From a virus, in the IMG/VR virus record IMGVR_UViG_3300030616_000052, positions 1 to 38,864 of that record: 38,864 bases of DNA; one strand, 5' to 3'. Position numbers and translations under genes: made by a program. Shown here piece by piece: positions 24,521-38,864 of the stretch. Each line of letters starts with the position of its first letter. The stretch's first letter is position 1. A model generated the notes under the pieces. The model had not been told where the DNA came from and searched no databases. It saw only the letters and a list, made by a program, of their open reading frames with translations.

Positions 24521-24536
24521 AGCAAGCTCCTAACTT

Positions 24537-24974: not shown

Positions 24975-25333
24975 TTTTTTCCTGGTAAATCAAAATTCAC
25001 TTCCCAGATTATATTAGCAATTTCCGTTAACTGGTAATTGTCTATGTCTCTAAGAAGTGCTTCAATATCCTTTTCATCAGTTATTAATTCCATTATCCGC
25101 TTCATATTGTCTTTTATCTGTTTTACAACAAAGGATGTAAACGCATAATCATCCTTTGGTGCATCAGACAAAAAGAACTCACGCACCGCACTAGTTATAA
25201 CATCTATAAGCTGTTCCTGATCCGGTATCGACAATGGATAAATAGTGACCTTCCTCAGATTACGGATGCCAATATCAACATCCCTAATCCGAGGATTCAA
25301 CATCTTATTTTCTCTCTCCGCTGTTTCGTTCAT
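24830..25333 (-). CDS. Tail assembly chaperone, short form (gpG-like)
   Basis: 167 residues, the main product of the G/GT pair just before the tape measure gene. It is largely helical (DQEQLIDVITSAVREFFLSD, then DDYAFTSFVVKQIKDNMKRI) and ends in a Ser/Glu-rich tail (KTSKESPSEKVESPSDN) characteristic of a disordered region over-read by the alternative frame. The frameshift site occurs at codons 119-120. In lambda and relatives the short form binds the tape measure protein. The gene begins 25 bases after the tail tube gene. Confidence 0.85.
   Translation of the reverse strand: MNETAERENKMLNPRIRDVDIGIRNLRKVTIYPLSIPDQEQLIDVITSAVREFFLSDAPKDDYAFTSFVVKQIKDNMKRIMELITDEKDIEALLRDIDNYQLTEIANIIWEVNFDLPGKNAKSLFEKLKNLFPSEGLSPMSLSDIQDTVLKTSKESPSEKVESPSDN
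24974..24980 (-). promoter_or_regulatory. Programmed -1 ribosomal frameshift site, A AAA AAC
   Basis: On the minus strand the zero frame reads GGA AAA AAC at codons 118-120 of the G gene. That is a canonical X XXY YYZ slippery heptamer in the right register. Slipping back one base gives CGC AAA GAG..., open to 24537. I looked for another heptamer between this site and the G stop and found none. I did not identify a firm downstream pseudoknot or stem-loop by eye. Confidence 0.82.
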
Positions 25334-25358
25334 TAGTTGTATCTCCTTAACAGGTTAA

Positions 25359-25949
25359 TTACTGGAAGTAAATTCTTCCTAGTGGTTTACTATCCCAACA
25401 CGAATCACCGCCAGTAGAATCAGAGCTTGCGTTCTTGGACTCAAAAGTAACAGGAACACCAGCAGCATCCTCAGCCTGGAGGTCGATCTCAACAGTAGAA
25501 ATCATCTGTGCTCTTGGGAATATAATAGTCATCGTGTTCGTTCCGTTATGGAATGTGTAGTACGCTTCCATCCTTATGTAATCAGGAGAAGTTCGCCCAC
25601 CGAGAGCTATTTCACCAGAATGTGCAGAAGAATACTCACCGGAAGTAGATGTAGCAATACCGTATGCATATGCAAGGTTCAAAGGTTTGATTTCCTTGAA
25701 TACGCATTCGAGTTGAGCACCTTCACGAGTAGCTATAGTCAGGTCTTCTTCCAGAGGGAAACCAGATTCCAGTTTCCACCAGTCAGTAGTACCTGTAAAC
25801 TTAGTACTTGCCATTGCCCCCATTGAATGGGTAGAAGACAAAACAGGTTCAGTATGTGCGATATACGCAGGAGAATTACCAACCCTAATCTGAGCAAGTC
25901 CTAGAGCTACTGTAGAAGTATCAGTTGTAACAGGACCATATCTAGCCAA
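25359..25949 (-). CDS. Major tail tube protein
   Basis: About 196 residues starting at a TTG codon (M-A-R-Y-G-P-V). The GTG at 25958 is in frame but lies inside the ribosome site AAAGGGGGTGAT (25965-25954), which leaves four bases before TTG at 25949, so TTG is the better start. The protein is beta-rich with moderate hydrophobics, as in tube proteins: WWKLESGFPLEEDLTIATRE, then TVEIDLQAEDAAGVPVTFES near the end. It stands directly before the G/GT genes, exactly where gpV stands. A strong ribosome site suits a protein needed in hundreds of copies. Confidence 0.82.
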   Translation of the reverse strand: MARYGPVTTDTSTVALGLAQIRVGNSPAYIAHTEPVLSSTHSMGAMASTKFTGTTDWWKLESGFPLEEDLTIATREGAQLECVFKEIKPLNLAYAYGIATSTSGEYSSAHSGEIALGGRTSPDYIRMEAYYTFHNGTNTMTIIFPRAQMISTVEIDLQAEDAAGVPVTFESKNASSDSTGGDSCWDSKPLGRIYFQ

Positions 25950-25953
25950 TAAT

Positions 25954-25965
25954 ATCACCCCCTTT
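25954..25965 (-). promoter_or_regulatory. Strong ribosome binding site deciding a TTG start
   Basis: AAAGGGGGTGAT on the minus strand differs from the extended anti-16S complement AGGAGGTGAT at one position. It ends four bases before TTG at 25949-25947, which places the core GGGGG at the usual distance from that codon. It contains the alternative GTG, ruling that start out in practice. Confidence 0.7.
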
Positions 25966-26029
25966 ACTATTTAAAAATTTACGGAGAATTTCAGCAATGC
26001 TGATTAGGGTTCGGTTATCCGATTGGTTT
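25966..26029 (-). promoter_or_regulatory. Longest tail-module spacer, possible promoter before the tail tube gene
   Basis: This is one of the few gaps over 50 bases among the late genes. On the minus strand it holds TTGCTG and, 17 bases later, TTAAAT, a weak sigma70-like pair just ahead of the tail tube ribosome site, plus a short inverted repeat (TCAGC-ATT-GCTGA). No U-tract follows the stem, so it is not a clear terminator. An extra promoter for the tube gene would make sense, but the match is weak. Confidence 0.28.
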
Positions 26030-26299
26030 TTAATCTTGGTCTTTATCTTTCTTCTCCTCTATCTTAGGAGAAGGCATTAAATGAAACAAATTCCAATGCT
26101 CAGGATATTCCCTTCTACAAGATTTCCTGAGACACCGCATCTTTACAGACCCACAGATAATAAGTTCAACAGGAGGAGATTTACCATCTCCTGGTTTCTT
26201 GCCAAATATAAAGCGGAAGAAACCACCAGGTAGACGCTCTATAAGCCTTTTACCACATTTCTCACAAACCATAAACTTTCTTTTTTTATCATTTTCCAT
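26030..26299 (-). CDS. Com-like zinc-ribbon protein in the tail module
   Basis: 89 residues from ATG 26299, overlapping the previous stop by one base (TAATG). A GTG/ATG-type extension to 26317 would only add overlap. It has a C12-x-x-C15 knuckle (VCEKCGKRLIERL), a basic stretch with FFRFIFGKK, and then K-M-R-C56-x(4)-C61-R-R-E-Y, the four ligands of a small zinc ribbon. The arrangement resembles phage Mu Com, an RNA-binding translational activator of the mom DNA-modification gene. The C-terminus is acidic/lysine-rich. The similarity is at motif level only; here no mom gene is visible. It might regulate translation in the tail operon or simply be a small structural zinc protein. Confidence 0.62.
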   Translation of the reverse strand: MENDKKRKFMVCEKCGKRLIERLPGGFFRFIFGKKPGDGKSPPVELIICGSVKMRCLRKSCRREYPEHWNLFHLMPSPKIEEKKDKDQD

Positions 26300-26769
26300 T
26301 AGATTGTAGCCCCCCAACTTAGAGTTACCGTAAGAACTTTATACTTAGTCTGATCCGTAGCATCCAACTGTGGAGATTCATTTATCTCTATAACCTTAAA
26401 TGCTCCAAGCTCCGTCCATGCTCCAGAAGGTCTACTCTGATAAAACGTTATTCGCTTCATCCCATCAGACATAGTAGAATCAGTAAGATACCCCATAACA
26501 TTATCACATAGTTGGGCTAACCTAAATCCTTCACTATCAATTCTCGTACAACAGTAAACATCAAGCTCAACAGTAGAATGAAACTCTCTTTCAAGAGGAC
26601 CAATATGCACACTAACCCATCTATTAGTATCTTTCCCCTGTATTTTTGGAGCAGATAGATACCTATCAAATGATACATAAATACCTTCAATAGTTCTTAT
26701 GTTGTCTACAAAAAACTTCTTTATACTATCTCGCACATTGGCTTCACGAGCAGTAGGGTCAAGAGACAT
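26299..26769 (-). CDS. Tail terminator (gpU-like)
   Basis: 156 residues in the U position between the gp10/Z-like gene and the tail tube gene. The fold pattern fits: an N-terminal helix (NVRDSIKKFFVDNI), then beta strands (RWVSVHIGPLEREFHSTVEL, FKVIEIN...YKVLTVTLSW) and a helix (GFRLAQLCDNVMGYL). Terminator proteins stop tube growth at the end set by the tape measure and join the tail to the head. The sequence match is not strong enough for a named family, so position carries much of the call. Confidence 0.7.
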   Translation of the reverse strand: MSLDPTAREANVRDSIKKFFVDNIRTIEGIYVSFDRYLSAPKIQGKDTNRWVSVHIGPLEREFHSTVELDVYCCTRIDSEGFRLAQLCDNVMGYLTDSTMSDGMKRITFYQSRPSGAWTELGAFKVIEINESPQLDATDQTKYKVLTVTLSWGATI

Positions 26770-26983
26770 CTGTATTCCCCCCTAATATTCCACGATGAAG
26801 ATCATCTAAAGCTGGGTAAAACTCCTTTGTAAGATAGTCTGCAGCTTCCCTAATATCTGGATTCTCCTGTCCATCATACTCTAACTTAGCACAGGATAGA
26901 GCAGTAAGGAGCTTATCTATCTCTGTAATACTCAGATCAATAGTTACATAAATATCTTTAGACTGTATACTAACAACTTTCAT
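26759..26983 (-). CDS. Small protein of unknown function in the tail module
   Basis: 74 residues overlapping the U-like gene by 11 bases. It begins MKVVSIQSKDIYVTIDLSIT and ends with an acidic helix (DIREAADYLTKEFYPALDDL). I recognise no domain. The overlap with neighbours on both sides supports translation. It may be a tail or head-tail accessory protein. Confidence 0.65.
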   Translation of the reverse strand: MKVVSIQSKDIYVTIDLSITEIDKLLTALSCAKLEYDGQENPDIREAADYLTKEFYPALDDLHRGILGGNTDVS

Positions 26984-26984
26984 G

Positions 26985-27527
26985 TTATCTCCACCTGTAT
27001 CTTATTCTTTTAAGCGATTCTGCCCCAAGCTGTGGTAGACAGGTGTGCTTAAATTCTTCAGTAGTTGGAACAAACAGTGGGCGTTTAGGTACTCTATTCC
27101 CATACCAACTTTTCCACCCACGCTCGACCATCGTAGCATACATAGCAATTGGTCTCCCTCCGGTAGTATCATTTAAAAGAGAACTACCCTGAGACGCAGT
27201 AACCCCAGCAGGGATTCCTGCCATCCAACCACCACGATATTTAAATACACGCAAGTTATTGAGAACACTTTCCGTTAATACCCAGTATCTTGTTTTATTT
27301 ATCCCCTTATCCTTCAACCAGTTTAAATAAACATCACTATAACCAGCATACTTTGAAGCATACTTCTGTGAAATGATATTTTGAGCCAGCAGATCACGAG
27401 CCTTTAGTGCAAGATTCCTTGGTAAAGTCCTCTTGTATTCTTTAGTAATAATATTCTGAGTCTTTATTGTCGCATTTATTACTTTCACAAGGTCTTGTAA
27501 ATCTGCAACAAAGTCTAACTGCAACAT
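26985..27527 (-). CDS. Tail completion / head-tail joining protein (HK97-gp10 / gpZ-like)
   Basis: 180 residues. The C-terminal third has Y-A-T-M-V-E-R-G, then RVPKRPLFVPTTEEFK, matching the E-x-G...[IV]-P-x-R-P-[FL]-[FL]-x-P pattern of HK97 gp10-type proteins. The N-terminal half is helical (QDLVKVINATIKTQNIITKE). These proteins finish the tail end that docks to the head. It is the first tail gene of the run: its ATG overlaps the stop of the upstream, GT-like gene by one base, physically coupling tail and modification genes. Confidence 0.78.
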   Translation of the reverse strand: MLQLDFVADLQDLVKVINATIKTQNIITKEYKRTLPRNLALKARDLLAQNIISQKYASKYAGYSDVYLNWLKDKGINKTRYWVLTESVLNNLRVFKYRGGWMAGIPAGVTASQGSSLLNDTTGGRPIAMYATMVERGWKSWYGNRVPKRPLFVPTTEEFKHTCLPQLGAESLKRIRYRWR

Positions 27528-27934
27528 TATTCATACCCCTCAGTGGGCTTAATCCAACCATCAAGAACAGTTTCATATGCTATACCGCCTTCTTGAAAAG
27601 CAGGGAACAGAGAATTTGGCTGCAACTTCAAATGTTTTCTAAATATCCGTGGGCTTTTCTCATGTTTGTTATTCACTTTAAACCTGTGAAGTATAAGACA
27701 ATCATAATCTTCACAATCTATAAAAACAGGTATAGCAAACTGCACATCCTCATCTATATACTCATTATCATAAATAACCATATACCAATCACCATCTTTA
27801 TGGTGTTTATTTATATCTTCATACGTAGTGCAATCAGTATAGAAAGTACATGGTATTTTACCAAAAGACTCAATAGTGTCTTCCTGTGTTCTTCCCTCAC
27901 AAGAATGCGGGATTATAAAAACATCTAATTTCAT
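27527..27934 (-). CDS. Short glycosyltransferase-A-like protein, probably degenerate
   Basis: 135 residues. MKLDVFIIPHSCEGR opens like a family 2 glycosyltransferase, D-W-Y-M-V-I-Y-D-N-E-Y-I-D-E-D resembles the usual D-W-x-L-x-x-D-A-D-E-x-I-x-x-D metal-binding segment with DNE in place of DADE, and SPRIFRKHLKL...E resembles the acceptor-side motif (P-R-[IL]-F-[RK]). At half the normal length it lacks much of a GT-A fold. It may be a reduced enzyme or a protein that kept only the binding part. It overlaps the radical SAM gene by four bases (ATGA). Confidence 0.45.
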   Translation of the reverse strand: MKLDVFIIPHSCEGRTQEDTIESFGKIPCTFYTDCTTYEDINKHHKDGDWYMVIYDNEYIDEDVQFAIPVFIDCEDYDCLILHRFKVNNKHEKSPRIFRKHLKLQPNSLFPAFQEGGIAYETVLDGWIKPTEGYE

Positions 27935-29145
27935 CTCAAAAGCTCCTTACTCTTGTATGTGTGTTCGAGATAGTCTCTAAAATGGACAATCTCTGTTTCA
28001 TCAAGACTCTCGGTTCTCGATGTTGCTTTGTACTTTCCTGGTGTTCCTTTATACCACATAGAATCACCATTGTAATTAAACTTAAGTCCAAAATAATCTG
28101 GGTTTTCAAAAATAGCAGACCCAGGAAGTGGCTGAAGAATACTAATATCTACATCATCAGGCTCTGCTTCCTTTATCCAAGACTCTGTTTCAAGTATAGT
28201 ACTTGTCGTTTCCCCAGGAAGCCCCACAATAAGAAATGCTTTAGCTCTTATTCCATATTCATGTAATAGGCGTATTGCTTCAGTATTAACCGACCTTGTT
28301 GTACCCTTCATATTTTTCCTCAAGATAACATCAGCCCCACTCTCTACCCCTATACCAACCTCAACTACATTCATTCTCCTTAATTCCTGGCATATAGCAT
28401 CAGTAATCAAATTTGATCTACCAAAACACCGGAACTTAAAACCAGACCCATTAACACCATTAGCAATATGACTCAGGCGTTCTTTATTCAATATAAATGT
28501 ATCATCAAATATCATAAAAGCTTTGAAACCAAAGTCGTTATTCACACCAAATATTTCAGACACAGTTCTATTAGCAGACTGCTGTCTAAAAGTTTTATCA
28601 ATACGAGCACAAAAAGAGCAGTCATAACAACACCCCCTACTCGTCATGATCACCGTAGCTGGTTCATCATCAATGTAATACTCATACTCTTTTATTGGTA
28701 AAGCATTTCTATCAGGGAACGGGTATTCATCAATATTACTTTTTCGCTTCCTTTCTACCCCTCCTTCTCTCTTATATATAGTATCCATCAAATCAGTAAG
28801 CTTTTCTTCGCCATATCCAGTAACTACTGCATCAAACCCATTATCAAAACATTCTTTTGGCATGTGTGTTGGGTGAGGTCCACCAGCAATAAGATATTTA
28901 TCATCTTTACACTTACTCACTATTTCATAAGCTTCCTTCCTCTGTGGAGTAGTAAAAGAAATACCAACAACATCAGACTCAATATCATCTACAGTATGCC
29001 CTAAACCAAAGTCAAGACATTGTACACGATATCTGCTATCCTTAAGATAGGCAGACAAGTACATAATTCCTAATGGGGGAAACACCCCATCATTAATAAG
29101 GAATTGGCTCCTTGGAAATATAAGTGTTATATCACATTTCTTCAT
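27931..29145 (-). CDS. Cobalamin-binding radical SAM enzyme
   Basis: 404 residues. Residues 1-125 have the B12-binding Rossmann pattern (FPPLGIMYLSAYLKD, then AGGPHPTHMPKECFD and TGYGEEKL). The cluster motif is G-C172-C-Y-D-C176-S-F-C179, the C-x3-C-x2-C that holds the [4Fe-4S] cluster for radical SAM chemistry. G-I-G-V-E-S-G-A-D and LIVGLPGET follow, typical of the SAM-binding barrel. Members of this class methylate unreactive carbons or remodel sugars, lipids and peptides. It overlaps both neighbours by four bases, so it belongs to the sugar/sulfate cassette. Its substrate cannot be read from the sequence. Confidence 0.9.
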   Translation of the reverse strand: MKKCDITLIFPRSQFLINDGVFPPLGIMYLSAYLKDSRYRVQCLDFGLGHTVDDIESDVVGISFTTPQRKEAYEIVSKCKDDKYLIAGGPHPTHMPKECFDNGFDAVVTGYGEEKLTDLMDTIYKREGGVERKRKSNIDEYPFPDRNALPIKEYEYYIDDEPATVIMTSRGCCYDCSFCARIDKTFRQQSANRTVSEIFGVNNDFGFKAFMIFDDTFILNKERLSHIANGVNGSGFKFRCFGRSNLITDAICQELRRMNVVEVGIGVESGADVILRKNMKGTTRSVNTEAIRLLHEYGIRAKAFLIVGLPGETTSTILETESWIKEAEPDDVDISILQPLPGSAIFENPDYFGLKFNYNGDSMWYKGTPGKYKATSRTESLDETEIVHFRDYLEHTYKSKELLR

Positions 29146-29879
29146 AGTGCTTCCTTCAACAAATTGTCATAATGACTAACTACAGGATTAGTATTATACT
29201 TTAGCTCACACATTATCTTCTCATCAGAATACGTTTCCTTCTTAGGATTCGTTGCTCCAATCTTTCTTCCATCATTCAAGAAAGCATATTGCATAGCATT
29301 CATTTTTATACCAATCATATCATGCAATCTTTCAAATACAGCAATCTTTTTATCTACCCCACCACGACACATATCAACAACCACAAGCCTTGCTTTACTA
29401 TCATTCTTAATATAATTAACCGATTCAAGAGACTTTTGTAGATGCCCTAAAAAATAATCACCACCAGCCTGTTCCCCAAAAAAACGTTTGAAAGACCTAC
29501 AATGGTCTATTATTGGTCTTGCACAATATATAATTAAATGCTTCCCTGTAATACGCTCAAGGATAGATTTATAATGAAACTCCCCCCTATTATCCCAAAC
29601 ACAAGGTATTCCATCATACTTAGGCTTCTCCTTGAGATATGTATAATATTTATCATATCCTGGTTTCTTATTAATATTATGTTCAAATTCCCTTTCTGGA
29701 TGAGACTCCCAATGCTTTTTGATATCTGTCATTGTAAATACAGAAGCATTAGAATCTCGCATCCAACCAAACCCAGGACCACCATAAGACAAAATCATAT
29801 CATTAAGTGAAAATATAGTAGACGTAAAACCACTACCACACCGCCCTATTCCGAAAATAAATACAACATCATAATTCAT
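29142..29879 (-). CDS. Sulfotransferase-like P-loop protein 1
   Basis: 245 residues. F-G-I-G-R-C-G-S-G-F-T-S-T at 9-21 is the 5'-phosphosulfate loop of PAPS-dependent sulfotransferases (pattern [GP]-x-x-R-[ST/C]-G-[ST]), and the strand plus arginine and serine at about 114-133 (HLIIYCARPIIDHCRSFKRF) fit the 3'-phosphate site. Such enzymes move sulfate from PAPS to sugar or protein hydroxyls. No PAPS synthesis genes are seen, so the host would supply it. It is coupled by four-base overlaps to the radical SAM gene and the SGNH gene. A kinase-like P-loop role is a weaker alternative. Confidence 0.7.
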   Translation of the reverse strand: MNYDVVFIFGIGRCGSGFTSTIFSLNDMILSYGGPGFGWMRDSNASVFTMTDIKKHWESHPEREFEHNINKKPGYDKYYTYLKEKPKYDGIPCVWDNRGEFHYKSILERITGKHLIIYCARPIIDHCRSFKRFFGEQAGGDYFLGHLQKSLESVNYIKNDSKARLVVVDMCRGGVDKKIAVFERLHDMIGIKMNAMQYAFLNDGRKIGATNPKKETYSDEKIMCELKYNTNPVVSHYDNLLKEAL

Positions 29880-30562
29880 ATCTCAACCCCTAATACATTA
29901 TTTAGTTCCTCAACAGCATATGGATACATTTCCTGAGAAAGATGGAAATCATCAGGAGCATAAAACTTTGGTTCCTCATTCATAAAATATTCCATCATTC
30001 TATAATACAAAGTAGCAAAAACAAGCCGATCCCTCTTTTCACACTCATAAGCAAGAACATTATTAAATAAATACTCAATATAACAAACTTCATCATAAGT
30101 TCCAAAATGCAGATTAGACATCTTTTTCCATCCCTTTTTAAACTTAGTGCCAGGTAACATAGGAGGGTGTGGACCCCACAAAATTATGGGGTCTACTCTA
30201 CTATGCTTTATAAGCCAATCAATAAATTCCATATAATTTTTAATACACAAATGCACAGCATATATAAATGACTTTTCCATATTCTCTGCTTGTAATACCA
30301 AATGATTCCTACAATCAATCTCACCATACATCAAAATCAATGGGTTGCTTTGATTTATACGCCCTAAAATATTTTCAAAATCCCTTCTCCCTGGGTGTTG
30401 TTTATTATTTAAATTATAACAAAGATGTGCTCCCATAGGATAAGTTTCAAACTTCTCATTCCTATCTTTTGTGTTTCTCCATGTTTTTGGATCACCAATT
30501 GCCATATCATTTGTGCCAGAAAAGAACCCAACATGACTATTACCAACAACACTAAATTTCAT
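29876..30562 (-). CDS. SGNH-type hydrolase / acyl esterase-like
   Basis: 228 residues from ATG 30562, right after the previous TAA. The first strand ends in V-G-N-S9-H, the block I of SGNH/GDSL proteins with Ser9 as nucleophile. L-M-Y-G-E-I-D-C-R-N-H corresponds to the oxyanion block, and D-D-F-H207-L-S near the end gives the Asp-His pair. The family removes or transfers acyl groups, often acetyl groups on sugars. Block I reads GNS rather than GDS, a known variation in SGNH proteins. Context suggests a sugar O-acyl enzyme. An upstream start at 30583 would overlap the glycosyltransferase gene. Confidence 0.75.
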   Translation of the reverse strand: MKFSVVGNSHVGFFSGTNDMAIGDPKTWRNTKDRNEKFETYPMGAHLCYNLNNKQHPGRRDFENILGRINQSNPLILMYGEIDCRNHLVLQAENMEKSFIYAVHLCIKNYMEFIDWLIKHSRVDPIILWGPHPPMLPGTKFKKGWKKMSNLHFGTYDEVCYIEYLFNNVLAYECEKRDRLVFATLYYRMMEYFMNEEPKFYAPDDFHLSQEMYPYAVEELNNVLGVEI

Positions 30563-30563
30563 A

Positions 30564-31649
30564 TTAAAAAGGAACCTCCACACTCTGCATCTTCCTACCT
30601 TCCGCTACTTTACCAAGAAACCATTCCCATCTCCTGCCCATAAGATCAGCAGAAAACCTGTTTTCAAAATCTTCTCTACACCTCTTCCTGTCAATCTGAT
30701 CAATCTTTTTAAGCAGTTCCTTTCCTTGTTCTATAATTGGCTCAGGATCATTAGAATCCTGGTAATCCAATATATATCCAGTTTCTCCATGCTTAACAAT
30801 TTTATCAACAACAACAGCACAATCCTGCAGTATCCTGTTAAAAGCAAGCACAGGAGTACCCATTGCAAGAGATTCAGCATTCACTATACCAAAGTGTTCC
30901 TTCCACGTATTATCATTACTTGATATAAAAACTTTAGCTCTGCTCATTATCTTTTGTTTCATAGCATCATCAGCCCCACGAACCCAGAACACAGTTTCAT
31001 TATCAATATAGGGGCATACTTTATTCCAAAAGCAACCAGTATTATAAGGTGGACCAATAATAACTATCTTGAGTCCTGCTGCTTTAGCTACCTCAATAGC
31101 AAGGTGTGGGGCTTTCCCCCCCTCAATCTTACCAATCCAAACAGCATAATCATCAGGATCATAACACGGCTCATATAGCTCAGTTGGTATACCATAATGT
31201 ATCATAGTAGTAGGACACCCAACCCTCTGAAAATCCTGTTGCAAAACCTTGGAATAAGATACTGTATTATATGACACCTGTTTCATCTGCCAGACCATGT
31301 GACACCAGACACACCACGTAAGTTCTGTATACCCCCTAAACTTCTCAAGAATATCTGGGTTCCAACCATCTCCAAAATAATTACACATATACACATCAAA
31401 ATCTATTTTATTCTCTTCAACATACTTACTTACAGCTTCATAGTGGACATCCCTATCATTTTGTATTTCTCCAATAGGAATATAATCTTTTATATATTTC
31501 TTTGGAACAGTTGTTCCTTCTCTCGAAAACAGATAAATATCATGCCCCAGTTTAGAAAGCTCTTTAATAAGGTAATAAAGAATCCTTTCCCCACCATAAG
31601 CCATCCCTTCTCCAAACGGAAATTGATTTCCTGTAAAACATAGCTTCAT
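30564..31649 (-). CDS. Glycosyltransferase family 4 (GT-B fold)
   Basis: 361 residues. The N-terminal Rossmann half has GMAYGGERILYYLIKELSKL, the G-G-x-x-x acceptor-domain start, and the C-terminal half has YAVWIGKIEGGKAPHLAIEV and E-H-F-G-I-V-N-A-E-S-L-A-M-G, the E-x7-E donor-sugar motif of GT4. These enzymes transfer a sugar from a nucleotide donor with retention of configuration. It has a likely start with AGGAGG upstream. Its stop and the next ATG are one base apart. Which sugar is used cannot be told. Confidence 0.9.
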   Translation of the reverse strand: MKLCFTGNQFPFGEGMAYGGERILYYLIKELSKLGHDIYLFSREGTTVPKKYIKDYIPIGEIQNDRDVHYEAVSKYVEENKIDFDVYMCNYFGDGWNPDILEKFRGYTELTWCVWCHMVWQMKQVSYNTVSYSKVLQQDFQRVGCPTTMIHYGIPTELYEPCYDPDDYAVWIGKIEGGKAPHLAIEVAKAAGLKIVIIGPPYNTGCFWNKVCPYIDNETVFWVRGADDAMKQKIMSRAKVFISSNDNTWKEHFGIVNAESLAMGTPVLAFNRILQDCAVVVDKIVKHGETGYILDYQDSNDPEPIIEQGKELLKKIDQIDRKRCREDFENRFSADLMGRRWEWFLGKVAEGRKMQSVEVPF

Positions 31650-31669
31650 AAGAAGTCCTCCTTAAAAGG

Positions 31670-32524
31670 TTATTTAGGTCGAACATCACAGGGATACCCT
31701 ATACCCCCACAATGTGCCACGTATTTAATTACATTATCAAAAGACATATCATTAAGTTGTTTTATCAATCCCTTTTTATATCCTATCCAACAAAATATAG
31801 TATACAGATTAAAATTATGTGGTAAATAATATACCTTATCCTTACTACCAGTCATTATCCCCAATACGTGTTCCAACCAAGGACATCTCCTATACTTATC
31901 TCCATATTTTTTATACAGATACTCAGAGCTTTCAAGACACTTCTTAATTTCTTCATAGTCAAAAAAGTCTCTCCTACCAAAAAAGAAGCGAGTAGAAGCC
32001 CAATTATAATCCCATCCAGAATCACAATCAGCATGAGGACTCCATCTACTTGGATATGAGACAAAGTCATACTTACCAGAATCAAGCCATCCTTTAATAT
32101 CATCAATAATAGTACAATCATCTCTCCTAAAAGCCATTGTATCACAATCAAAATGCACAATATACTTTGACCTTGTACAAATAATAGGATTAAGAATGCT
32201 CAAACACAACCACTTAGGATAATATTCCATATCTCCAAAAGATTCATTATGTCTATTAATATATAAATTATCAATAACCCCCTGTCGTATCAAATCATTC
32301 ATCCTGACAAGTAAATCTCCAGTCAACATTTCATGTAGGTCAATATATACAGTAACCTCAGTATCATACCCACGAAAGAAGTCTACCTTATTTTTAACCC
32401 CATCTATAAAGTAGTCTGCAGATACAACCCCAGTTCCATTCTTACCTCCAGCAGAATGTTTTTCAGCATCAGAAAGATAACCAGCTCTTGTATCCAAATT
32501 TATGACTATTCCTATCTCCGACAT
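31670..32524 (-). CDS. Glycosyltransferase, GT-A type with DCD motif
   Basis: 284 residues from ATG 32524, which directly follows the methyltransferase stop. The 24-residue upstream extension would only overlap that gene. V-H-F-D126-C-D128-T-M is a DxD metal site, and the surrounding sequence (YIVHFDCDTMAFRRDD, then SGKYDFVSYPSRWSPH) resembles GT-A enzymes that bind a nucleotide sugar through Mn/Mg. The C-terminal third contains a cysteine-rich CRRCPWLEHVLGIM-like segment. Family assignment beyond GT-A is unsure. Confidence 0.7.
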   Translation of the reverse strand: MSEIGIVINLDTRAGYLSDAEKHSAGGKNGTGVVSADYFIDGVKNKVDFFRGYDTEVTVYIDLHEMLTGDLLVRMNDLIRQGVIDNLYINRHNESFGDMEYYPKWLCLSILNPIICTRSKYIVHFDCDTMAFRRDDCTIIDDIKGWLDSGKYDFVSYPSRWSPHADCDSGWDYNWASTRFFFGRRDFFDYEEIKKCLESSEYLYKKYGDKYRRCPWLEHVLGIMTGSKDKVYYLPHNFNLYTIFCWIGYKKGLIKQLNDMSFDNVIKYVAHCGGIGYPCDVRPK

Positions 32525-32525
32525 A

Positions 32526-33254
32526 TTAAACTCCCTTCGATATAAGTTCTCTATACATCTTACAAAATTCTGCTCCATTCGGACCAAGGAAGTCATTATT
32601 TATAATACCAAATGGTATACCTTCTTTCCAAAAGAAAGCAAGCTCATGCCAGTTATTGTTTTTATCTTTTCTTGTTATTCGATCAAAAGCTAACATACAA
32701 TCAACAAAACCAAGCTTAGGGAAACCAACTAATTTATCATCTATAATAGTAAATATCCACCTATGATGGAAAAACCCCCTATAGGTATATTCGTGTGTTA
32801 GCCCCCAATCAATCTGTTCTTCAGGAGTTACACACTCAGTTCCAGAAAACAACTCCCAAGTCTTACTTGGTATAGCAATAAAACCCTCCTTAGCAATATC
32901 TGGTAAATGCCTCAACACATAAACTGGGTTACGAATATCTTCAATAGTATGAGTACAAACAGCAAAATCAAACTTCCCATTTTCCTCTACATCCTTATAA
33001 ACTTCTCCCCATCCATCCCCATCATTAATATCCCCAATAAAAGACTTAGCTTGATCAATCTCTTCAGTATACATATCTGGATAATCTTTAATATATTCAT
33101 GTACATCCTTCAAATCAAAATATGCAGTAGCAAACCGATTAACCCAAGGATATATAGCACCACCAATATCTATAACTCTTTTAAACTTCTTCTCTCCAAG
33201 ATAAGCTAATGCCTTAGCTCGCATATCTTTCTGATTAGAATACTCAGTTATCAT
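32526..33254 (-). CDS. Class I SAM-dependent methyltransferase 1
   Basis: 242 residues. RVIDIGGAIYPW (27-37 region) is the SAM-binding motif I, CTHTIEDIRNPVYVLRHLPD is the motif IV/V region of Methyltransf_23/11 enzymes, and KEGFIAIPSK follows as expected. The C-terminal part has an unusual aromatic region (THEYTYRGFFHHRWIFTI) that may bind the substrate. In this setting a sugar O- or N-methyltransferase is likely, but protein or small-molecule targets are possible. Adjacent genes abut within two bases. Confidence 0.8.
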   Translation of the reverse strand: MITEYSNQKDMRAKALAYLGEKKFKRVIDIGGAIYPWVNRFATAYFDLKDVHEYIKDYPDMYTEEIDQAKSFIGDINDGDGWGEVYKDVEENGKFDFAVCTHTIEDIRNPVYVLRHLPDIAKEGFIAIPSKTWELFSGTECVTPEEQIDWGLTHEYTYRGFFHHRWIFTIIDDKLVGFPKLGFVDCMLAFDRITRKDKNNNWHELAFFWKEGIPFGIINNDFLGPNGAEFCKMYRELISKGV

Positions 33255-33563
33255 TTATGCCCCCTTGCAAACTAGTTGCATTATCCCTTTCTGAAAAGAT
33301 GAAAGAGTATCACCATTTGTAAAAATACTATCATTGAGCTTTCCATCATAAGGATCATATATATAATCCCCCATGAACTCTACTTCAATATTCCTACCAC
33401 TCTCAGTAGTAATGCTATGCACATCTGAGTTTAAGAATAAACCCATCTTTTTAGCATCCTCATCAGATACATTCTCAACATTACTCATCCGATCAAAGTA
33501 ACAATACTTGGGTTGTTCTTCTGCTTTTATGCTTCTCCCGCACATTTTACATACATAAAACAT
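33255..33563 (-). CDS. Small protein with N-terminal zinc-knuckle half
   Basis: 102 residues starting MFYVC5KMC8G, followed by C21, with a single further cysteine near the C-terminus (C100). The C-x-x-C-G start with nearby C-Y-F-D is like one half of a rubredoxin-type zinc ribbon. Much of the rest is polar (HSITTESGRNIEVEFMGDYI). AAGGAG precedes the ATG by about six bases. No known family; it may bind a metal or be a small partner of the neighbouring enzymes. Confidence 0.6.
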   Translation of the reverse strand: MFYVCKMCGRSIKAEEQPKYCYFDRMSNVENVSDEDAKKMGLFLNSDVHSITTESGRNIEVEFMGDYIYDPYDGKLNDSIFTNGDTLSSFQKGIMQLVCKGA

Positions 33564-34116
33564 TTTTTACTCCTTCCTCTTGGATTGTTTTTAGCCCTTC
33601 ATAGTGCTTCAAATTTTCATTAGTAATATGTATCAGCTGTGGGTCAAGCCTATAATCAATAAACTGTGAAATTGCTAAAATAGATTCATTTTTATTATGG
33701 ATTAAGCCTTCATAGCTAACAAAGTAATAATCCATATCATACTTTATTACATCCCCCATTATCTTCTTATATGCCCTCTTTATTGCAGATAAAGAAACCT
33801 CTTCATTTTTTATAAGCCCAGGGAAATGTATAGTCTGTGTCTTCTTTACAGCATACCAATCTCTTATCATTACTATAACCTGAACGGCATATCCATAATT
33901 CTCAAATACATCAGATATGTTCTTAAGGTTATACCAACCTATCCCTCCTTTTGGCATACTACCCCGCCAAACAATAGGAGAATTCCCCCTCTTCATATAA
34001 TCAAAACAATTCTGATTTCTCCCTATCTCTCCATAACACCCATTCACAATAAGGATATCTGTCATAAGATGATTACCAGAATTCTGTGCTCCGGTTATTA
34101 TAAAAGCTTTTTTCAT
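33547..34116 (-). CDS. Sulfotransferase-like P-loop protein 2
   Basis: 189 residues. T-G-A-Q-N-S-G-N-H at 8-16 is a 5'-phosphosulfate-type loop following a strand (KKAFIITGAQNSGNH), and V-I-V-M-I-R85-D-W-Y-A-V with nearby lysines matches the 3'-phosphate strand. It is shorter than the first sulfotransferase-like protein and diverged from it, so it is not a recent duplicate. It overlaps both neighbouring genes. A nucleotide kinase or another P-loop transferase is a possible alternative. Confidence 0.6.
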   Translation of the reverse strand: MKKAFIITGAQNSGNHLMTDILIVNGCYGEIGRNQNCFDYMKRGNSPIVWRGSMPKGGIGWYNLKNISDVFENYGYAVQVIVMIRDWYAVKKTQTIHFPGLIKNEEVSLSAIKRAYKKIMGDVIKYDMDYYFVSYEGLIHNKNESILAISQFIDYRLDPQLIHITNENLKHYEGLKTIQEEGVKNVLCM

Positions 34117-34580
34117 TTCTTCCTTCTTTTATAAATTCTCTGTTTCTTTGGTTTCTCTTTTTCTTTCTTCGGTTCCTCTTTAACAGAAACTCGTAGCTTA
34201 TCTGCATCAGGCTCTTTTATCCAAGCTGGAGCACCATGTTGGCAACCAGGAGTAGCTTCATCCCCAGAATAAATGTAACAAGGTATTTCATTTAAATCAC
34301 GAAGAGCACAAGCCATATACCGTTTATATCCATCAAGCCTTTCATATTTCCTATTCATACCAAAATAATCAATAACAGTCTCACGCACCGCTATCGGAGT
34401 TATTTCCCCACCACAACAAAGACCCCTACTTATGTACTCTATTCCTTTCTTGTGTGTATCCCAACTATAACTAGGATCAGGGTATTTCTTCTCTACCTCT
34501 TCCCATTCAGGTTCAGTTTTTGGGTGGTTATCATCATAAGGATTTATGTCAGCCATCTTCAACATACTAAACTTTTTCAT
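34113..34580 (-). CDS. ParB/Srx-like domain protein with a basic tail
   Basis: 155 residues from ATG 34580, with AAGGAGG six bases upstream; the longer frame start at 34619 is weaker. I-T-P-I-A-V-R-E then Y-E-R-L-D-G-Y-K-R-Y-M-A-C-A-L-R-D-L (80-97) followed by EIPCYIY matches the ParB N-terminal/sulfiredoxin-like motif (D-G-x-x-R-x-x-A...[LI]-P). The C-terminus is very basic (KKEKEKPKKQRIYKRRKK). ParB-fold proteins bind CTP or DNA, or act as small nucleotide-using enzymes. In a glycan cassette it may be a nucleotide-handling protein rather than a partition factor; no ParA or parS is visible. Confidence 0.62.
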   Translation of the reverse strand: MKKFSMLKMADINPYDDNHPKTEPEWEEVEKKYPDPSYSWDTHKKGIEYISRGLCCGGEITPIAVRETVIDYFGMNRKYERLDGYKRYMACALRDLNEIPCYIYSGDEATPGCQHGAPAWIKEPDADKLRVSVKEEPKKEKEKPKKQRIYKRRKK

Positions 34581-34962
34581 AATTCCTCCTTGCTTTTTCA
34601 AATAGATCACATAAAGCAATAAATGTATCTGGGATCATCTCTATCCTTATATCATTATAATGAAAATGGATGTTACCGTCTTGCTGTAATTCTATTTTCA
34701 ATTCATCCCTAAAAATAATATCAGAGTTAAACTCAAAGTGTGCTAAAACTTTGTCTTTATCTGGACTAAGATTCCCATCCCAATTATTAACCGCACTAGC
34801 TACAGCAGCAAAAAAAGTTCTGAACTGCTCAGGTTCCATTAGTATCCTTACATCATTCCAATGAATGTGTATTTTCTCTGCTTCTTCTATGCGAATCTGC
34901 TTGGCAAATAATTGAGTACATTTCATACAAGTACTAGCAAGCATAGCCCTTATTCTTCCCAT
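34567..34962 (-). CDS. Unknown protein with an internally duplicated IHxHxNDxRI motif
   Basis: 131 residues from ATG 34962, which overlaps the previous stop (TAATG); the 34983 frame start is a TTG. The motif IHIHWNDVRILMEPEQFRTF (31-50) recurs as IHFHYNDIRIEMIPDTFIAL (98-117): H-x-H-x-N-D-x-R-I-x-M-x-P-x-x-F in both. Two His and one Arg per copy could bind a metal or nucleotide. I know no function. The duplication suggests a pseudo-dimer. It sits between the ParB-like protein and a methyltransferase. Confidence 0.65.
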   Translation of the reverse strand: MGRIRAMLASTCMKCTQLFAKQIRIEEAEKIHIHWNDVRILMEPEQFRTFFAAVASAVNNWDGNLSPDKDKVLAHFEFNSDIIFRDELKIELQQDGNIHFHYNDIRIEMIPDTFIALCDLFEKARRNYEKV

Positions 34963-35624
34963 TATTTCACCCTCTCTGCCCAAAATGACCCATGTCCTAT
35001 ATCTGACTGTCTAGTTACCCAGTTTTTTTCATTCGTTTCAAAGTAATCAATAAAACCATTAGTACTTTTTATATCATCAAAACAGACTATACTGCCAACC
35101 CTAGAACTATTTTTATATAGTAGCCATTCTTCAATAATAAATTCTGGAATATGGACAGAATCCTGGAAACAAAAATCCCAATGCTCCATTTTATGTACAA
35201 CAACACCTAATATTTCACGACTCACACCCTCAAAATACTTTACTGCACACCTACAATTAACAGCTAAATGTTTATTTCTTCTTTCAACAACTCTTTCCCA
35301 TCCATCTGGATCATCTATCTTAACAGCCTCTTTCCCTACCCCCACAAGATCATAATTTCCACCAGAATCTATAGTATAAAGAACACAATCATCAGAGTAA
35401 TCCATAGTCAAAGCTATTTTTATAGTACCAAAACCATCAAAAGTACCAATCTCTAAAACCTTAATTGGTTTAAATAATTCAATGCACTTTAAAAGCATGT
35501 ACATACCAGCATTATCATGTGTCCAAGAAGCAACAGACGGTTCCCTAATACCCCCAACAGGAGCACCAACATAAACACCATAAGGTGGTTGTATATTATC
35601 CCAATTAGTTTCAAGAAAACTCAT
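34962..35624 (-). CDS. Class I SAM-dependent methyltransferase 2
   Basis: 220 residues. KVLEIGTFDGFG (55-66) is SAM motif I, and MEHWDFCFQDSVHIPEFIIE with V-C-F-D-D-I is the Asp-His-type region of Methyltransf_24-like enzymes that methylate sugar or catechol hydroxyls. DGFGTIKIALTMDY lies in the expected helix. It overlaps the next gene by one base and the previous one by four. The sequence differs clearly from the first methyltransferase, so the two are not paralogous copies. Confidence 0.82.
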   Translation of the reverse strand: MSFLETNWDNIQPPYGVYVGAPVGGIREPSVASWTHDNAGMYMLLKCIELFKPIKVLEIGTFDGFGTIKIALTMDYSDDCVLYTIDSGGNYDLVGVGKEAVKIDDPDGWERVVERRNKHLAVNCRCAVKYFEGVSREILGVVVHKMEHWDFCFQDSVHIPEFIIEEWLLYKNSSRVGSIVCFDDIKSTNGFIDYFETNEKNWVTRQSDIGHGSFWAERVK

Positions 35625-36367
35625 CTTACCCTCACTACTCCACCAACAAAATTAGGAATTAGATCAACCTTTGTCCTATCAGCATTAGGATTCTGCCAAG
35701 TATCATTACCTACTTCTGTTTTATAATCATTACAATATTTAAGAATAGTATCCCAATCAATATCAAGAAGCTCAAAATTATCAGTTTTAGCAAGTTCATT
35801 TGCAGCTATCTGTGGTTGTATATACTGATTACCAAAATCGTGAAACATCATTATCCCGCCAACAAGAAGCCTATCCTTAATGATCCCAACTTCCTTCTTA
35901 ACAAGCTCTTCCTGATGGTCATCACTATCTATAAAAACATAAGAGAAACGAAAATCTTTATAAAAATCAAGAAACTGTATAGAAGTCATGCCACGCAAAA
36001 TGTGAGTCAAATCAGAATATTGTTCAACCCTCCTAATGACAGTTTCCTTAAAATTATCATCCTTACAATATCCCCAAGGTATCTTAGTAGCTGACCCCTG
36101 AACCGTATCCTTCCAGGCTTCTTCATTAGTCAAATCATATAATGGGTCTACAAGACAAAAAAGATCGTTCCTCCCCATACTACTCAGGGTGTGTGAAGCC
36201 ATTATAGAAGACTTACCAGCATGAGACCCAAAATCTGCAGCAACAACAAACCGATCACATTTACACGTAACATACTTTCTAATACAAGAAGAAACAGCTA
36301 TCATTTCAGCAGTACTTACAGCCCCAGGTATTATTTTCATAAGATTTAATGCATCTACATAGCTCAT
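35621..36367 (-). CDS. Class I SAM-dependent methyltransferase 3 (TylF/Methyltransf_24-like)
   Basis: 248 residues. VAADFGSHAGKSS at 42-54 is motif I, Y-V-F-I-D147-S-D-D-H151 gives the metal-binding Asp and a His as in TylF/NovP sugar O-methyltransferases, and IIKDRLLVGGIMMFHDFGNQ supplies the last Asp. This set of residues is the recognised Mg-dependent sugar O-methyltransferase signature. The role in sugar methylation therefore has more support here than for the other two methyltransferases. It overlaps both neighbours by four bases. Confidence 0.83.
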   Translation of the reverse strand: MSYVDALNLMKIIPGAVSTAEMIAVSSCIRKYVTCKCDRFVVAADFGSHAGKSSIMASHTLSSMGRNDLFCLVDPLYDLTNEEAWKDTVQGSATKIPWGYCKDDNFKETVIRRVEQYSDLTHILRGMTSIQFLDFYKDFRFSYVFIDSDDHQEELVKKEVGIIKDRLLVGGIMMFHDFGNQYIQPQIAANELAKTDNFELLDIDWDTILKYCNDYKTEVGNDTWQNPNADRTKVDLIPNFVGGVVRVR

Positions 36368-36588
36368 AAGTTATCCCTACCACTTACTGGTTTATAATAA
36401 ACACGCTCTAAACTGGCAGCAGAAGTACCTTCTACATGTACTAACCGCTCTTTAAAATCACTAATAAAAACACCACACTCTGGGCATTGAGGACTGATCA
36501 TATTCTCCTTAGCATATACTGTAAAATGATTATGACAGTTAGGACACTCAACAGCTACGAGAGTATGGAAATCATTACAACAAGACAT
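36364..36588 (-). CDS. Small zinc-ribbon protein
   Basis: 74 residues from ATG 36588, preceded by GGAGGGGGT. C15-P-N-C18...C35-P-E-C38-G is a classical zinc ribbon of the rubredoxin/MJ0042 kind. The C-terminal part is polar. Proteins like this bind nucleic acid or act as small protein-protein adaptors. The longer frame from 36609 would overlap the GT2 gene by 19 bases and adds no conserved sequence. Confidence 0.72.
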   Translation of the reverse strand: MSCCNDFHTLVAVECPNCHNHFTVYAKENMISPQCPECGVFISDFKERLVHVEGTSAASLERVYYKPVSGRDNL

Positions 36589-36590
36589 AC

Positions 36591-37322
36591 TTACCCCCTC
36601 CAGTCCCAATAATTTGGGTCTGCATAATTAGCAAGTTCGGGTTTCACTTTTGTCTCAAACAAATCAGCAACAAGCCCTAACATCTTACGCCTTGCTTGGT
36701 TGCGTAACCACTTCCTCTCAATCCTTTGTCGATCCCTGTAATCATCTTTTTCATAGTGAAGGATATATGCATCTTCAGACAGCTTAAACTCAGACTCCAC
36801 CCCCCACATACAATGATGAGGACTATTAATCCAATGCATCTTGGGATCAAATTTTATAATCCTGCATTGGAAATCAGGGAACTGCCCTATCTGCCTTTCC
36901 TCTATAGGAAAACCATCTTCTCCAATAATAGCATGTGGGCTGTCCTCATACCTAAATACATCTATTGTTCGTCTTGCAACAAAACCAACATCATATTTTA
37001 GCCCCTCTTTATTAATAATAGAAAGACTCTTTTTGAGGTTATCCGTCATCCTTTCATCAAAATCCAAGATAAAAGCAATAGAGCCTTTAGGAAGATAAGA
37101 CAGGGCTATATTACTCTGGCATACCTCCATATTATGATACCAATCAAGCCAGGGATGAATATAAACCTCTACTTTGCTAAACCCCTTGAGTTCATGAATA
37201 GTGTAATCCGTACTTCCTCCATCAATAACAATTATCCTGTCTACCCAATCATCATCATGGAAATCACTTATACATCTTTTTACTATATTCTCTTCATTGA
37301 GACACTTCATGAGCACAATCAT
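36591..37322 (-). CDS. Glycosyltransferase family 2
   Basis: 243 residues. It has the opening of GT2 enzymes (MIVLMKCLNEENIVKRCISD), V-I-D-G-G-S-T-D at 32-39 and I-L-D87-F-D89-E-R-M, the DxD-like metal site, followed by QCRIIKFDPKMHWINSP, the acceptor-side segment with histidines (NSPHHC). The pattern P-x-x-x-x-[RK]-[IL]-[IF]-[KR] is typical for LPS-core GT2s such as WaaE-like enzymes. It lies two bases before the next gene and probably forms a pair with it. Confidence 0.88.
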   Translation of the reverse strand: MIVLMKCLNEENIVKRCISDFHDDDWVDRIIVIDGGSTDYTIHELKGFSKVEVYIHPWLDWYHNMEVCQSNIALSYLPKGSIAFILDFDERMTDNLKKSLSIINKEGLKYDVGFVARRTIDVFRYEDSPHAIIGEDGFPIEERQIGQFPDFQCRIIKFDPKMHWINSPHHCMWGVESEFKLSEDAYILHYEKDDYRDRQRIERKWLRNQARRKMLGLVADLFETKVKPELANYADPNYWDWRG

Positions 37323-37324
37323 AA

Positions 37325-38864
37325 TTAGTTCTCCTCTTCAGGTTGGTTTTTTCTGAACTTACTAAGAAGTTCTGTAACAGCTTTTTTCACCTTAACTGGT
37401 GAAATTGTATTTATACAAGGGGAAGCACAAGGCTGCTTACCATAAGGGATATTCCCCCAACAATGTGAAAGAGTATCACAAACTTTGAGCATATCAGGCT
37501 CAAATTTTATAATCCTATCATCAGCTAAACACGGTGCAGTCACCCTTGCTGGGGCTGGTCCAAAAAGAACCACAGCTGGTGTGTCTGTTGCTCCAGCAAG
37601 GTGTGAGCAGTAGCTGTCCACCACAACAGCAATAGTAGCATGTTTCATGACATAAGCACTCTCCCGCCAAGAAAGCTTCCCCCTCAAGTCATTAGCATAC
37701 TTGCACCGTGGGTCATCCTCCCCACCAATTTGAAATATAGGAATATTAAACCCCTTTAACACAAGATCAAAATGCTTGTACCTTCTATATTCAGACTGCC
37801 CACCAGAATTAAGTACAATATAATCCTCAGTCTCAAGATCAAATATTTCCTCTCCCAGTAACTTAAAATCCCCTTCTGGTTTAATACAGTCAATAAACAT
37901 CGGTTCTGGTTTTACATTACAAAAGTAGGGATACATAGTATACAATTTAACATCTAAATTATTCCATCCACCAGGAAGTATCTTCTCCTGATGCGGATTA
38001 TATACAACCTCATATGCACCCGCTAAACGTGGGTTCCAATCTATAATATCATCAATATATGGATTGCCCTCAACAATTCCCTGGAACTTAGGTTGAGTCA
38101 TATAAACAAGCTTCTTTTCTAGGTGTCTTTCCTTAAGCCCTTTAAAACATTGTGTTGACATAAGGACATCCCCAGCAGAAGAATGTTGTGCAAATAAAAT
38201 GGCATCAGTTATCTTTCCAGTATCAATCTCCTCCTTCCTCACCTTAGTGACATCAGAAAGAAGTGCGTTAACATCAGATACTTCAGAACGCCATTCTTTA
38301 GATCGAACAATACTAGCCCTTGCCATCTTTTCCCTAAGTTGTACACTAGAAGCAACATGCTTTATAGCTTCCGCAATATCATCTGCTCTGCAAGCACGAG
38401 CATCAACATGAGATATCCCATTCTTAGTCTTCATTGGGATATAACCAGAATCATTACAGGGAACAAGAACACCAGCCCCCTCTACAATTTCTGTTTGTGC
38501 TGTAGTATCAGATGCAATTACAGGACAACCACAAGCCATAGCTTCAATAGGAGTCCAACTCAAACCTTCCTGCATAGAACAGTTTACAAGACAGTCAAAT
38601 GTATTATACAATTTAACCATCTCTTCCTGTTTAAAAACTACACCTTCTGGTCTGGAAGTAAGATCACCACTTCTTAGATTACAATCAAGAGCATATTGCT
38701 TAAGGTTATATTGTCCTTTGGACAAACTTGTGTGCATATATAAATGTATATCAGGAACTTCTTTCTTAGCTAAAGCAAAACCACGTATAAGCTTCTGTGG
38801 GTCTTTTCTTACCTGATTTACCCCAACAAAACCGAATATCAGTTTATCTTCTGGGATCATACCA
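37325..38864 (-). CDS. GT4-GT9 fusion glycosyltransferase (heptosyltransferase-like C-terminus), 5' end outside the window
   Basis: At least 513 residues; the frame is open to the window edge and no start is visible, so the true N-terminus lies beyond. The first part (FGFVGVNQVRKDPQKLIRGF, then E-G-L-S-W-T-P-I-E-A-M-A-C-G-C) is the C-terminal half of a GT4 enzyme, including the E-x7-E motif. After a linker near residue 215 it continues as a GT9 heptosyltransferase-like domain: SSAGDVLMSTQCFKGLKE, VLNSGGQSEYRRYKHFD, VDSYCSHLAGATDTPAVVLF-GPA. Heptosyltransferases add heptose to lipid A core. Joining GT4 and GT9 in one chain suggests two successive sugar transfers. Confidence 0.88.
   Translation of the reverse strand, partial: GMIPEDKLIFGFVGVNQVRKDPQKLIRGFALAKKEVPDIHLYMHTSLSKGQYNLKQYALDCNLRSGDLTSRPEGVVFKQEEMVKLYNTFDCLVNCSMQEGLSWTPIEAMACGCPVIASDTTAQTEIVEGAGVLVPCNDSGYIPMKTKNGISHVDARACRADDIAEAIKHVASSVQLREKMARASIVRSKEWRSEVSDVNALLSDVTKVRKEEIDTGKITDAILFAQHSSAGDVLMSTQCFKGLKERHLEKKLVYMTQPKFQGIVEGNPYIDDIIDWNPRLAGAYEVVYNPHQEKILPGGWNNLDVKLYTMYPYFCNVKPEPMFIDCIKPEGDFKLLGEEIFDLETEDYIVLNSGGQSEYRRYKHFDLVLKGFNIPIFQIGGEDDPRCKYANDLRGKLSWRESAYVMKHATIAVVVDSYCSHLAGATDTPAVVLFGPAPARVTAPCLADDRIIKFEPDMLKVCDTLSHCWGNIPYGKQPCASPCINTISPVKVKKAVTELLSKFRKNQPEEEN

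Follow-up and report, generated by a model that had tools for sequence, protein, structure and literature searches.

We analysed a stretch of 38,864 bases that makes up the whole of the linear IMG/VR record IMGVR_UViG_3300030616_000052 (hereafter the window), and in it a run of 16 open reading frames (ORFs) on the minus strand (27527-38863) that adjoins a siphovirus tail operon and encodes glycosyltransferases (GTs), methyltransferases, a radical SAM enzyme and a pair of proteins termed HxHW and ParB-like (Table 1). An earlier sequence-only reading had placed about sixteen minus-strand genes directly upstream of the first tail gene, and all 16 are indeed present there. The ORFs are tightly packed, each abutting or overlapping the next. 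When TTG and GTG starts were trimmed to internal ATG codons backed by relatives (in the HxHW, ParB-like, GT-A-like, SGNH-like and zinc-ribbon genes), most junctions were overlaps of 1-4 nt or gaps of 1-2 nt, the longest overlaps being 17 and 14 nt, with one gap of 20 nt between 30564-31649 and 31670. The short overlaps claimed by that reading hold up to its maximum of 17 nt; some of the junctions are gaps instead. We name proteins by the lower coordinate of their ORF (e.g., 29142 and 27527) and compared contigs or loci by L-numbers. The window is a viral fragment that is incomplete on the 5' side of the locus: the contig ends within the GT4-GT9 ORF (the L018 orthologue of which has 689 amino acids, aa) and the genes upstream of this ORF are missing, so the left border is known from relatives alone.

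Table 1. Genes of the locus and of the adjoining tail module in the window
Feature	Position	Strand	Evidence
GT4-GT9 bifunctional glycosyltransferase, 5' end cut; constant left end	37325..38863	-	Pfam Glycos_transf_1 8e-15, Glyco_transf_9 8e-8
GT2 glycosyltransferase; constant	36591..37322	-	Pfam Glycos_transf_2 1.2e-6
Zinc-ribbon protein	36364..36588	-	Zn_ribbon_TFIIB 1.9e-4, just under cut-off
Class I methyltransferase (Methyltransf_24)	35621..36367	-	7e-7, above cut-off
Class I methyltransferase (Methyltransf_24)	34962..35624	-	6.8e-5, just under cut-off
HxHW protein, 131 aa	34567..34962	-	Two H-x-H-[WY]-x-[ND]-x-R beta-hairpin plus helix units
ParB/Srx-fold domain protein, 155 aa	34113..34580	-	Profile vs PDB; P motif D-G-[FYW]-K-R
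Possible sulfotransferase	33547..34116	-	Sulfotransfer_1 E 0.0049, under cut-off
Small Cys-rich (zinc-binding-like) protein	33255..33563	-	45% identity in L018; homologues in L070-L072
Class I methyltransferase (Methyltransf_23)	32526..33254	-	4e-6, just passes Pfam cut-off
GT-A-like protein	31670..32524	-	H-x-D-x-D invariant in 8 homologues
GT4 glycosyltransferase	30564..31649	-	Pfam 2.8e-11; 71% identity in L018
SGNH-like hydrolase	29876..30562	-	G-x-S-H, GEIDCR and D-x-x-HLS motifs, kept in three sequences (incl. L018, L002)
P-loop-like protein, sulfotransferase-like motifs only	29142..29879	-	GxGRCGxG and CARxxxxHxRSFKR kept in 3 sequences
B12-binding-domain radical SAM enzyme (CX3CX2C); constant right part	27931..29145	-	Radical_SAM 2.8e-17, B12-binding 1.3e-14
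135-aa protein, always beside tail genes; constant right end	27527..27934	-	Homologues in 13/15 bait contigs, plus L004, L006
Tail module anchoring the locus, including tail completion genes	20816..27527	-	
Tail tube protein	25359-25958	-	PHROG major tail protein, Pfam Phage_TTP_17
Tape measure	20816-24520	-	tblastn
Lambda J-like central tail protein, very large, 2932 aa	10006-18804		

Most of the enzyme families proposed by the sequence-only reading were recovered. Of the GT or GT-like genes, which it counted as five, GT4, GT4-GT9 and GT2 are recognised by Pfam and the GT-A-like 31670 by motif, with no Pfam or PDB match; 27527 is not demonstrably a GT, and we rejected it as a GT2 remnant, since hhalign related it to the GT2 family with a probability of only 5%, which is not significant. 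The three class I methyltransferases stand, the Methyltransf_23 and one Methyltransf_24 protein just passing the Pfam cut-off and the other Methyltransf_24 protein falling just under it, as does the B12 radical SAM enzyme, both domains of which lie above their Pfam cut-offs and the cysteines of which are invariant in four sequences. By sequence, its nearest solved structure is OxsB; in NCBIfam it lies near TIGR04013, BchE and HpnJ and reaches no curated cut-off, and it is the sole PADLOC match in the cassette, to one candidate model. A tblastn search of 50,697 isolated phages returned only 24-28% identical matches to it, in three records, and no match to 29142. Homologues of the other enzymes are found in relatives: the GT4-GT9 protein at 46-62% identity in L018, L020 and L004, GT2 at 50-67% across all 10 radical SAM bait contigs (see below) with sufficient upstream sequence, methyltransferase 35621 at 57% in L018 and 39% in L002, 34962 in L073 and L085, and 32526 in L071, L072, L076 and L078-L080. 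At the place of the zinc-ribbon protein 36364, L018 encodes a protein that resembles it in the C-terminus.

Two further assignments have to be worded with more care. The SGNH hydrolase was recovered at the level of motifs conserved in relatives; 29876 had no Pfam match and its profile search against PDB gave nothing usable, and its probable role is that of a glycan esterase. On the other hand, the sulfate part of the sequence-only reading, two sulfotransferase-like proteins, could not be established for the window genes: 33547 matches its family at about E 0.005 and has no homologue among the relatives compared, and 29142 shows motifs only, with no family match, nothing usable from PDB profile search and no support from comparison with the sulfotransferase-like cassette genes of relatives. 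AlphaFold gave only a poor model of 29142 from two sequences (pLDDT 51), with which a fold search reached no significance (best match TPST-1, E 0.62). Both are thus unproven, putative sulfotransferases. Among related cassettes, a sulfotransferase gene passes the cut-off in L016 and another lies just under it in L007.

The sequence-only reading had counted a lack of co-conservation in related phages among the things that would speak against it; we found the genes to be co-conserved. L018, a separate contig, holds 12 of the 16 genes in the same order with 38-71% identity, plus the positional zinc-ribbon counterpart, and is without methyltransferases 34962 and 32526 and protein 33547; conservation of so many genes in order excludes a chance arrangement. 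Single-protein pattern scans detected few or no relatives, and the use of HxHW as bait biased the earliest scans. For the siphovirus lineage, though not beyond it, this bias is corrected by a scan of viral contigs with a radical SAM profile alone, built from four sequences (the window, L018, L020 and L002). This bait retrieved 18 contigs; when those with 100% identity in the radical SAM gene were merged, 15 non-redundant ones were left. The gene adjoins a 27527 homologue, with tail genes beyond, in 13 of the 15, and the tail-tube gene was matched in 11. GT4-GT9 and GT2 occur, in that order, in all 10 contigs reaching far enough upstream (L078, L080 and L085 end too early for this test, and L002 and L084 lie outside the lineage). 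Leaving out the profile contributors L018, L020 and L002 gave 11 of 12 for 27527 and 8 of 8 for both GTs. Only GT4-GT9, GT2, the B12 radical SAM gene and 27527 are constant, and the middle differs from phage to phage, drawing on a pool of GT4, GT-A-like, Methyltransf_23, Methyltransf_24, SGNH, small Cys-rich, 29142-family and HxHW-ParB genes and shrinking to one or two genes in the minimal form seen in L081 and L082. The set is not locked, as had been claimed; its ends are constant and its middle is exchanged. Pyruvyl-transferase-like, epimerase and extra radical SAM genes were recognised in the middle by eye, and relatives add sugar-nucleotide enzymes, namely, a UDP-sugar dehydrogenase (L002) and a GDP-mannose dehydratase with an epimerase (L007). 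The pyruvyl-transferase-like genes, L070:9295-10008 and L073:7947-8732, are look-alikes of polysaccharide pyruvyl transferases with GGGGL ... VRD motifs.

In relatives read upstream, the locus sits after capsid-region and head-tail connector genes; L004 and L006 have the tail operon and the slot in common with the window and are without this radical SAM gene. These results support a co-conserved sugar-modification locus at a fixed place in the head-tail operon. Its architecture is that of a capsule or O-antigen locus set in a phage operon: like cps and rfb loci, it has constant ends, exchangeable middle enzymes and a fixed chromosomal slot, but it has no flippase, polymerase or lipid-carrier transferase. 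The high turnover of the middle genes could also be read as a loose cargo island, that is, unrelated moron genes gathered at a permissive site with no joint function. The base composition might point the same way, as the cassette (28000-37000) has a GC content of 0.34-0.37, against mostly 0.37-0.43 for the tail part, and a GC skew of about -0.35, against -0.12 to -0.30, which is consistent with acquisition from elsewhere or a different codon demand. However, the four constant genes keep a fixed order in 10 of 10 informative contigs, 12 genes are collinear with L018, and the recognisable cargo is nearly all sugar chemistry, so that we regard such an island as highly improbable.

A simple hydropathy scan detected transmembrane segments in none of the 16 window proteins and in 2 of the 104 ORFs in the slots of relatives, where they were marginal, compared with 1-9 in controls. 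This argues against an O-antigen pathway with a flippase or lipid-linked intermediates and favours an acceptor in the cytosol. Given these soluble enzymes, the constant position within the late operon and the connection of HxHW with flagella described below, a virion protein is the best acceptor candidate. While the sequence-only reading had named virion proteins or the host surface as the target, which we still can only infer, the missing membrane proteins and the flagellar contexts favour a protein acceptor, most likely a virion protein. The host-surface side of this choice would have the locus alter host lipopolysaccharide (LPS) or capsule during infection, blocking superinfection or freeing progeny like O-antigen modification clusters do. 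GT9 is a heptosyltransferase family, and where GT and radical SAM genes occur in environmental phages, the usual interpretation is that they alter host LPS, also in the case of GT2/GT4/GT9 and O-antigen-type genes (PMC7029224, PMC9723712). The O-antigen-type genes of pelagimyophages and of methanogen and methanotroph viruses likewise combine GT2/GT4/GT9 with radical SAM genes, partly in variable regions, but they are interpreted as auxiliary metabolic genes for the host surface, whereas here a defined set of constant genes occupies a single conserved slot in the operon. Gtr-type seroconversion relies on membrane proteins. Neither a membrane flippase nor a membrane-bound GT is encoded by the 16 genes of this incomplete contig, essentially no membrane proteins occur in the slots of relatives, the locus is fixed in a late structural operon, and bacterial HxHW occurs in flagellar contexts. 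We therefore consider host-surface remodelling unlikely, although it retains appreciable weight.

The HxHW and ParB-like pair, which the sequence-only reading had overlooked, is the most novel element of the locus. The HxHW protein had no match in Pfam, PHROGs, PADLOC or PDB, and tblastn of it and of the L016 fusion against the isolated phages detected nothing. It is internally duplicated (hhalign E 6.6e-13), and profile searches found it in about 20 viral contigs plus some bacterial genomes. Most viral relatives have the ParB-like domain either next to HxHW or in one protein with it: the two are fused in L006-L009, L011, L012, L014-L017 and L022, the domain order is reversed in L010, and one gene separates them in L020, while no ParB neighbour was detected in L029, L031 and L032. 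In L031, HxHW (8408-8791) stands alone, and the replication genes of this virus, which may infect archaea, include MCM-like and zinc-binding ones. In podovirus-like contigs, which have a different structural operon, the fusion follows capsid and decoration genes and is flanked by methyltransferase and GT9-like genes. Since the earliest scans used HxHW as bait, the pair was first taken as the invariant core of the locus, an idea that we dropped because the radical SAM bait shows the pair to be optional in the siphovirus lineage.

In agreement with the sequence-only reading, 34113 is ParB-like: its profile matches ParB (5e-4) and SbnI (8e-4) in PDB, with a weak Pfam ParB_N match (E 0.012). A model of the L006 fusion (pLDDT 74) puts sulfiredoxin (E 2.6e-4), Noc, SbnI and free serine kinase at the top of the PDB list, and gives no significant fold match for its HxHW half. 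By the profile of the window protein and the model of this relative, the ParB-like half has the ParB/sulfiredoxin/serine-kinase fold. The GxxR P motif (G84, R87) is invariant in 17 ParB-like sequences; the alignment contains no invariant Glu (the SerK catalytic Glu is E30, mutated in SerK structures), and D16 and H19 are conserved instead. A 2025 survey of the fold describes, in its available part, phage fusions to methyltransferases and domains of unknown function and nucleotide binding via GxxR, and makes no mention of HxHW there (PMC12704722). The window protein shares the fold and the invariant motif with the proteins covered in that part of the survey, but differs in having no visible helix-turn-helix (HTH) or ParA partner and in its HxHW partner domain, which is outside Pfam.

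Bacterial occurrences of HxHW hint at its role. In a metagenome-assembled genome of the planctomycete order Sedimentisphaerales, a single protein of 1211 aa combines HxHW, a ParB-like segment, GT9 and two GT2 domains, and its gene lies between FlgK/flagellin-family and FliD genes; the ParB-like segment reads DGQHR by eye, slightly off the phage motif. In a Desulfobacterota genome (the phylum of L041), an HxHW protein follows flgK, flgL and fliW and is itself followed by a WbsX/GT2 protein. Other bacteria carry HxHW fused to an APH-family kinase domain, some of these loci lying near type I secretion or repeat-protein genes. HxHW is rare: three samples of 345, 343 and 349 genomes, each including the genome used as its centre, contained it in 2, 1 and 10 genomes, respectively. 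In L033-L037, L039, L041 and L042, HxHW is N-terminal in proteins of 780-1120 aa with the APH kinase domain, L042 having an additional C-terminal radical SAM/SPASM domain; the repeat-protein genes near some of these loci are Ser-Asp- or Asp-rich. Flagellin-glycosylation islands resemble the phage locus in that HxHW, in one case together with ParB/Srx, lies with GT2 and GT9 beside flagellar filament and hook-associated genes, but they are cellular and their HxHW is often fused to the APH kinase domain, and the phage set adds the B12 radical SAM and SGNH proteins.

These contexts bear on two other accounts of the ParB-like protein, both of which we judge very unlikely. As the ParB fold is best known from DNA segregation, and given the weak ParB_N match, 34113 might be a partition or transcription factor that sits in the cassette by accident, HxHW being unrelated to it. 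However, most viral relatives have it next to HxHW or fused to it, with either domain coming first, and it is fused to GTs in L038; the HTH and neighbouring parA of a canonical partition system were both looked for and not found, by Pfam for parA among the cassette genes; and the fold class includes ATP-using enzymes. Alternatively, the locus might hypermodify DNA, placing sugars or other groups on phage bases, with the ParB-like protein acting on nucleotides or DNA. Phage GTs are known to hypermodify DNA (Pyle 2024, as cited in PMC12619734), PMC10829341 mentions systems that modify nucleotides by glycosyl- and sulfotransferases, phages commonly carry ParB-like domains (PMC12704722), and HxHW-ParB lies near replication-type genes in L002 and L007. 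Against this stand the position in the head-tail operon and the fusion of HxHW-ParB with GT9 and GT2 in a flagellar locus; in addition, no modified-base biosynthesis or base-kinase gene was recognised among the cassette proteins with Pfam, PHROGs and NCBIfam.

Taken together, we consider it somewhat better than even that this is a glycan-assembly locus of an uncultured siphovirus lineage, with a swapped centre and a structural virion protein as the likely acceptor. In the mechanism that we propose, the locus, which sits as an insertion between the head-tail connector and the tail genes of the late operon, would use its constant end enzymes (GT4-GT9, GT2, the B12 radical SAM enzyme and 27527) to build and modify a core sugar chain, and its exchangeable middle (further GTs, methyltransferases for sugars, an esterase, HxHW with the ParB-like protein and perhaps sulfotransferases) would turn this into a version specific to each phage. 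Since the enzymes are all soluble and co-produced with virion proteins, the acceptor would most likely be a structural protein that receives its sugars in the cytoplasm, either ahead of virion assembly or in the course of it. Because HxHW-ParB is present in flagellar loci, it may be a nucleoside triphosphate (NTP)-binding accessory of protein O-glycosylation. The glycan being made, its acceptor, the enzyme order and the role of HxHW-ParB are what we infer from these genes. More tentatively, and with rather less than even confidence, HxHW and the ParB/Srx domain might form a hitherto undescribed NTP-dependent module for O-glycosylation of self-assembling extracellular or virion proteins, common to flagellar islands and structurally unrelated phages, with the surrounding siphovirus locus being serotype-like and giving a phage-specific particle coat.

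Several points weigh against the glycan-assembly proposal. Both the glycan and the glycosylated protein are predicted here from genes, several enzymes are putatively assigned on motifs only, and the contig is a fragment, so that membrane partners, for which the test was a hydropathy scan, could be encoded elsewhere. Moreover, L002 and L007 carry HxHW-ParB near replication-type rather than structural genes, and the pair is absent from most of the radical SAM bait siphoviruses, that is, optional. Virion glycosylation itself has precedents, as capsid and tail-tube glycans are reported for the mycobacteriophage Che8 and relatives (Freeman et al. 2023, as cited in the available parts of PMC11256854 and PMC12619734). 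These, too, are tailed phages with their own GTs, and in the window and relatives GT genes are co-located with structural genes, as expected for virion glycosylation; structural-protein glycans are reported there and proposed here from genes alone. The present system differs in its 16-gene locus (with GT4-GT9, GT2, B12 radical SAM, SGNH and HxHW-ParB), its fixed head-tail slot and its swapped centre. In the open-licence literature searched, as far as its available text goes, no comparable phage locus with a B12-binding radical SAM gene and GTs at the tail genes is described. If the proposal is true, phages possess, for their own particles, serotype-like loci of a kind comparable to the capsule loci of bacteria, and the retention of GTs among the structural genes of many environmental phages would become open to genetic study. 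The analysis also defines an unnamed two-domain module, HxHW-ParB, the recurrence of which beside flagellar genes predicts a protein-glycosylation role for an unannotated family.

Scans of the window with Rfam and for tRNAs gave no matches, nor did DNA megablast against the isolated phages. In a search for the host, the tail-tube profile matched 0 of about 600 genomes in two phyla, a scan that had no positive control. Finally, the capsid genes of L025 are interrupted by an ORF (6022-6549) that by eye resembles a homing endonuclease of the LAGLIDADG type.

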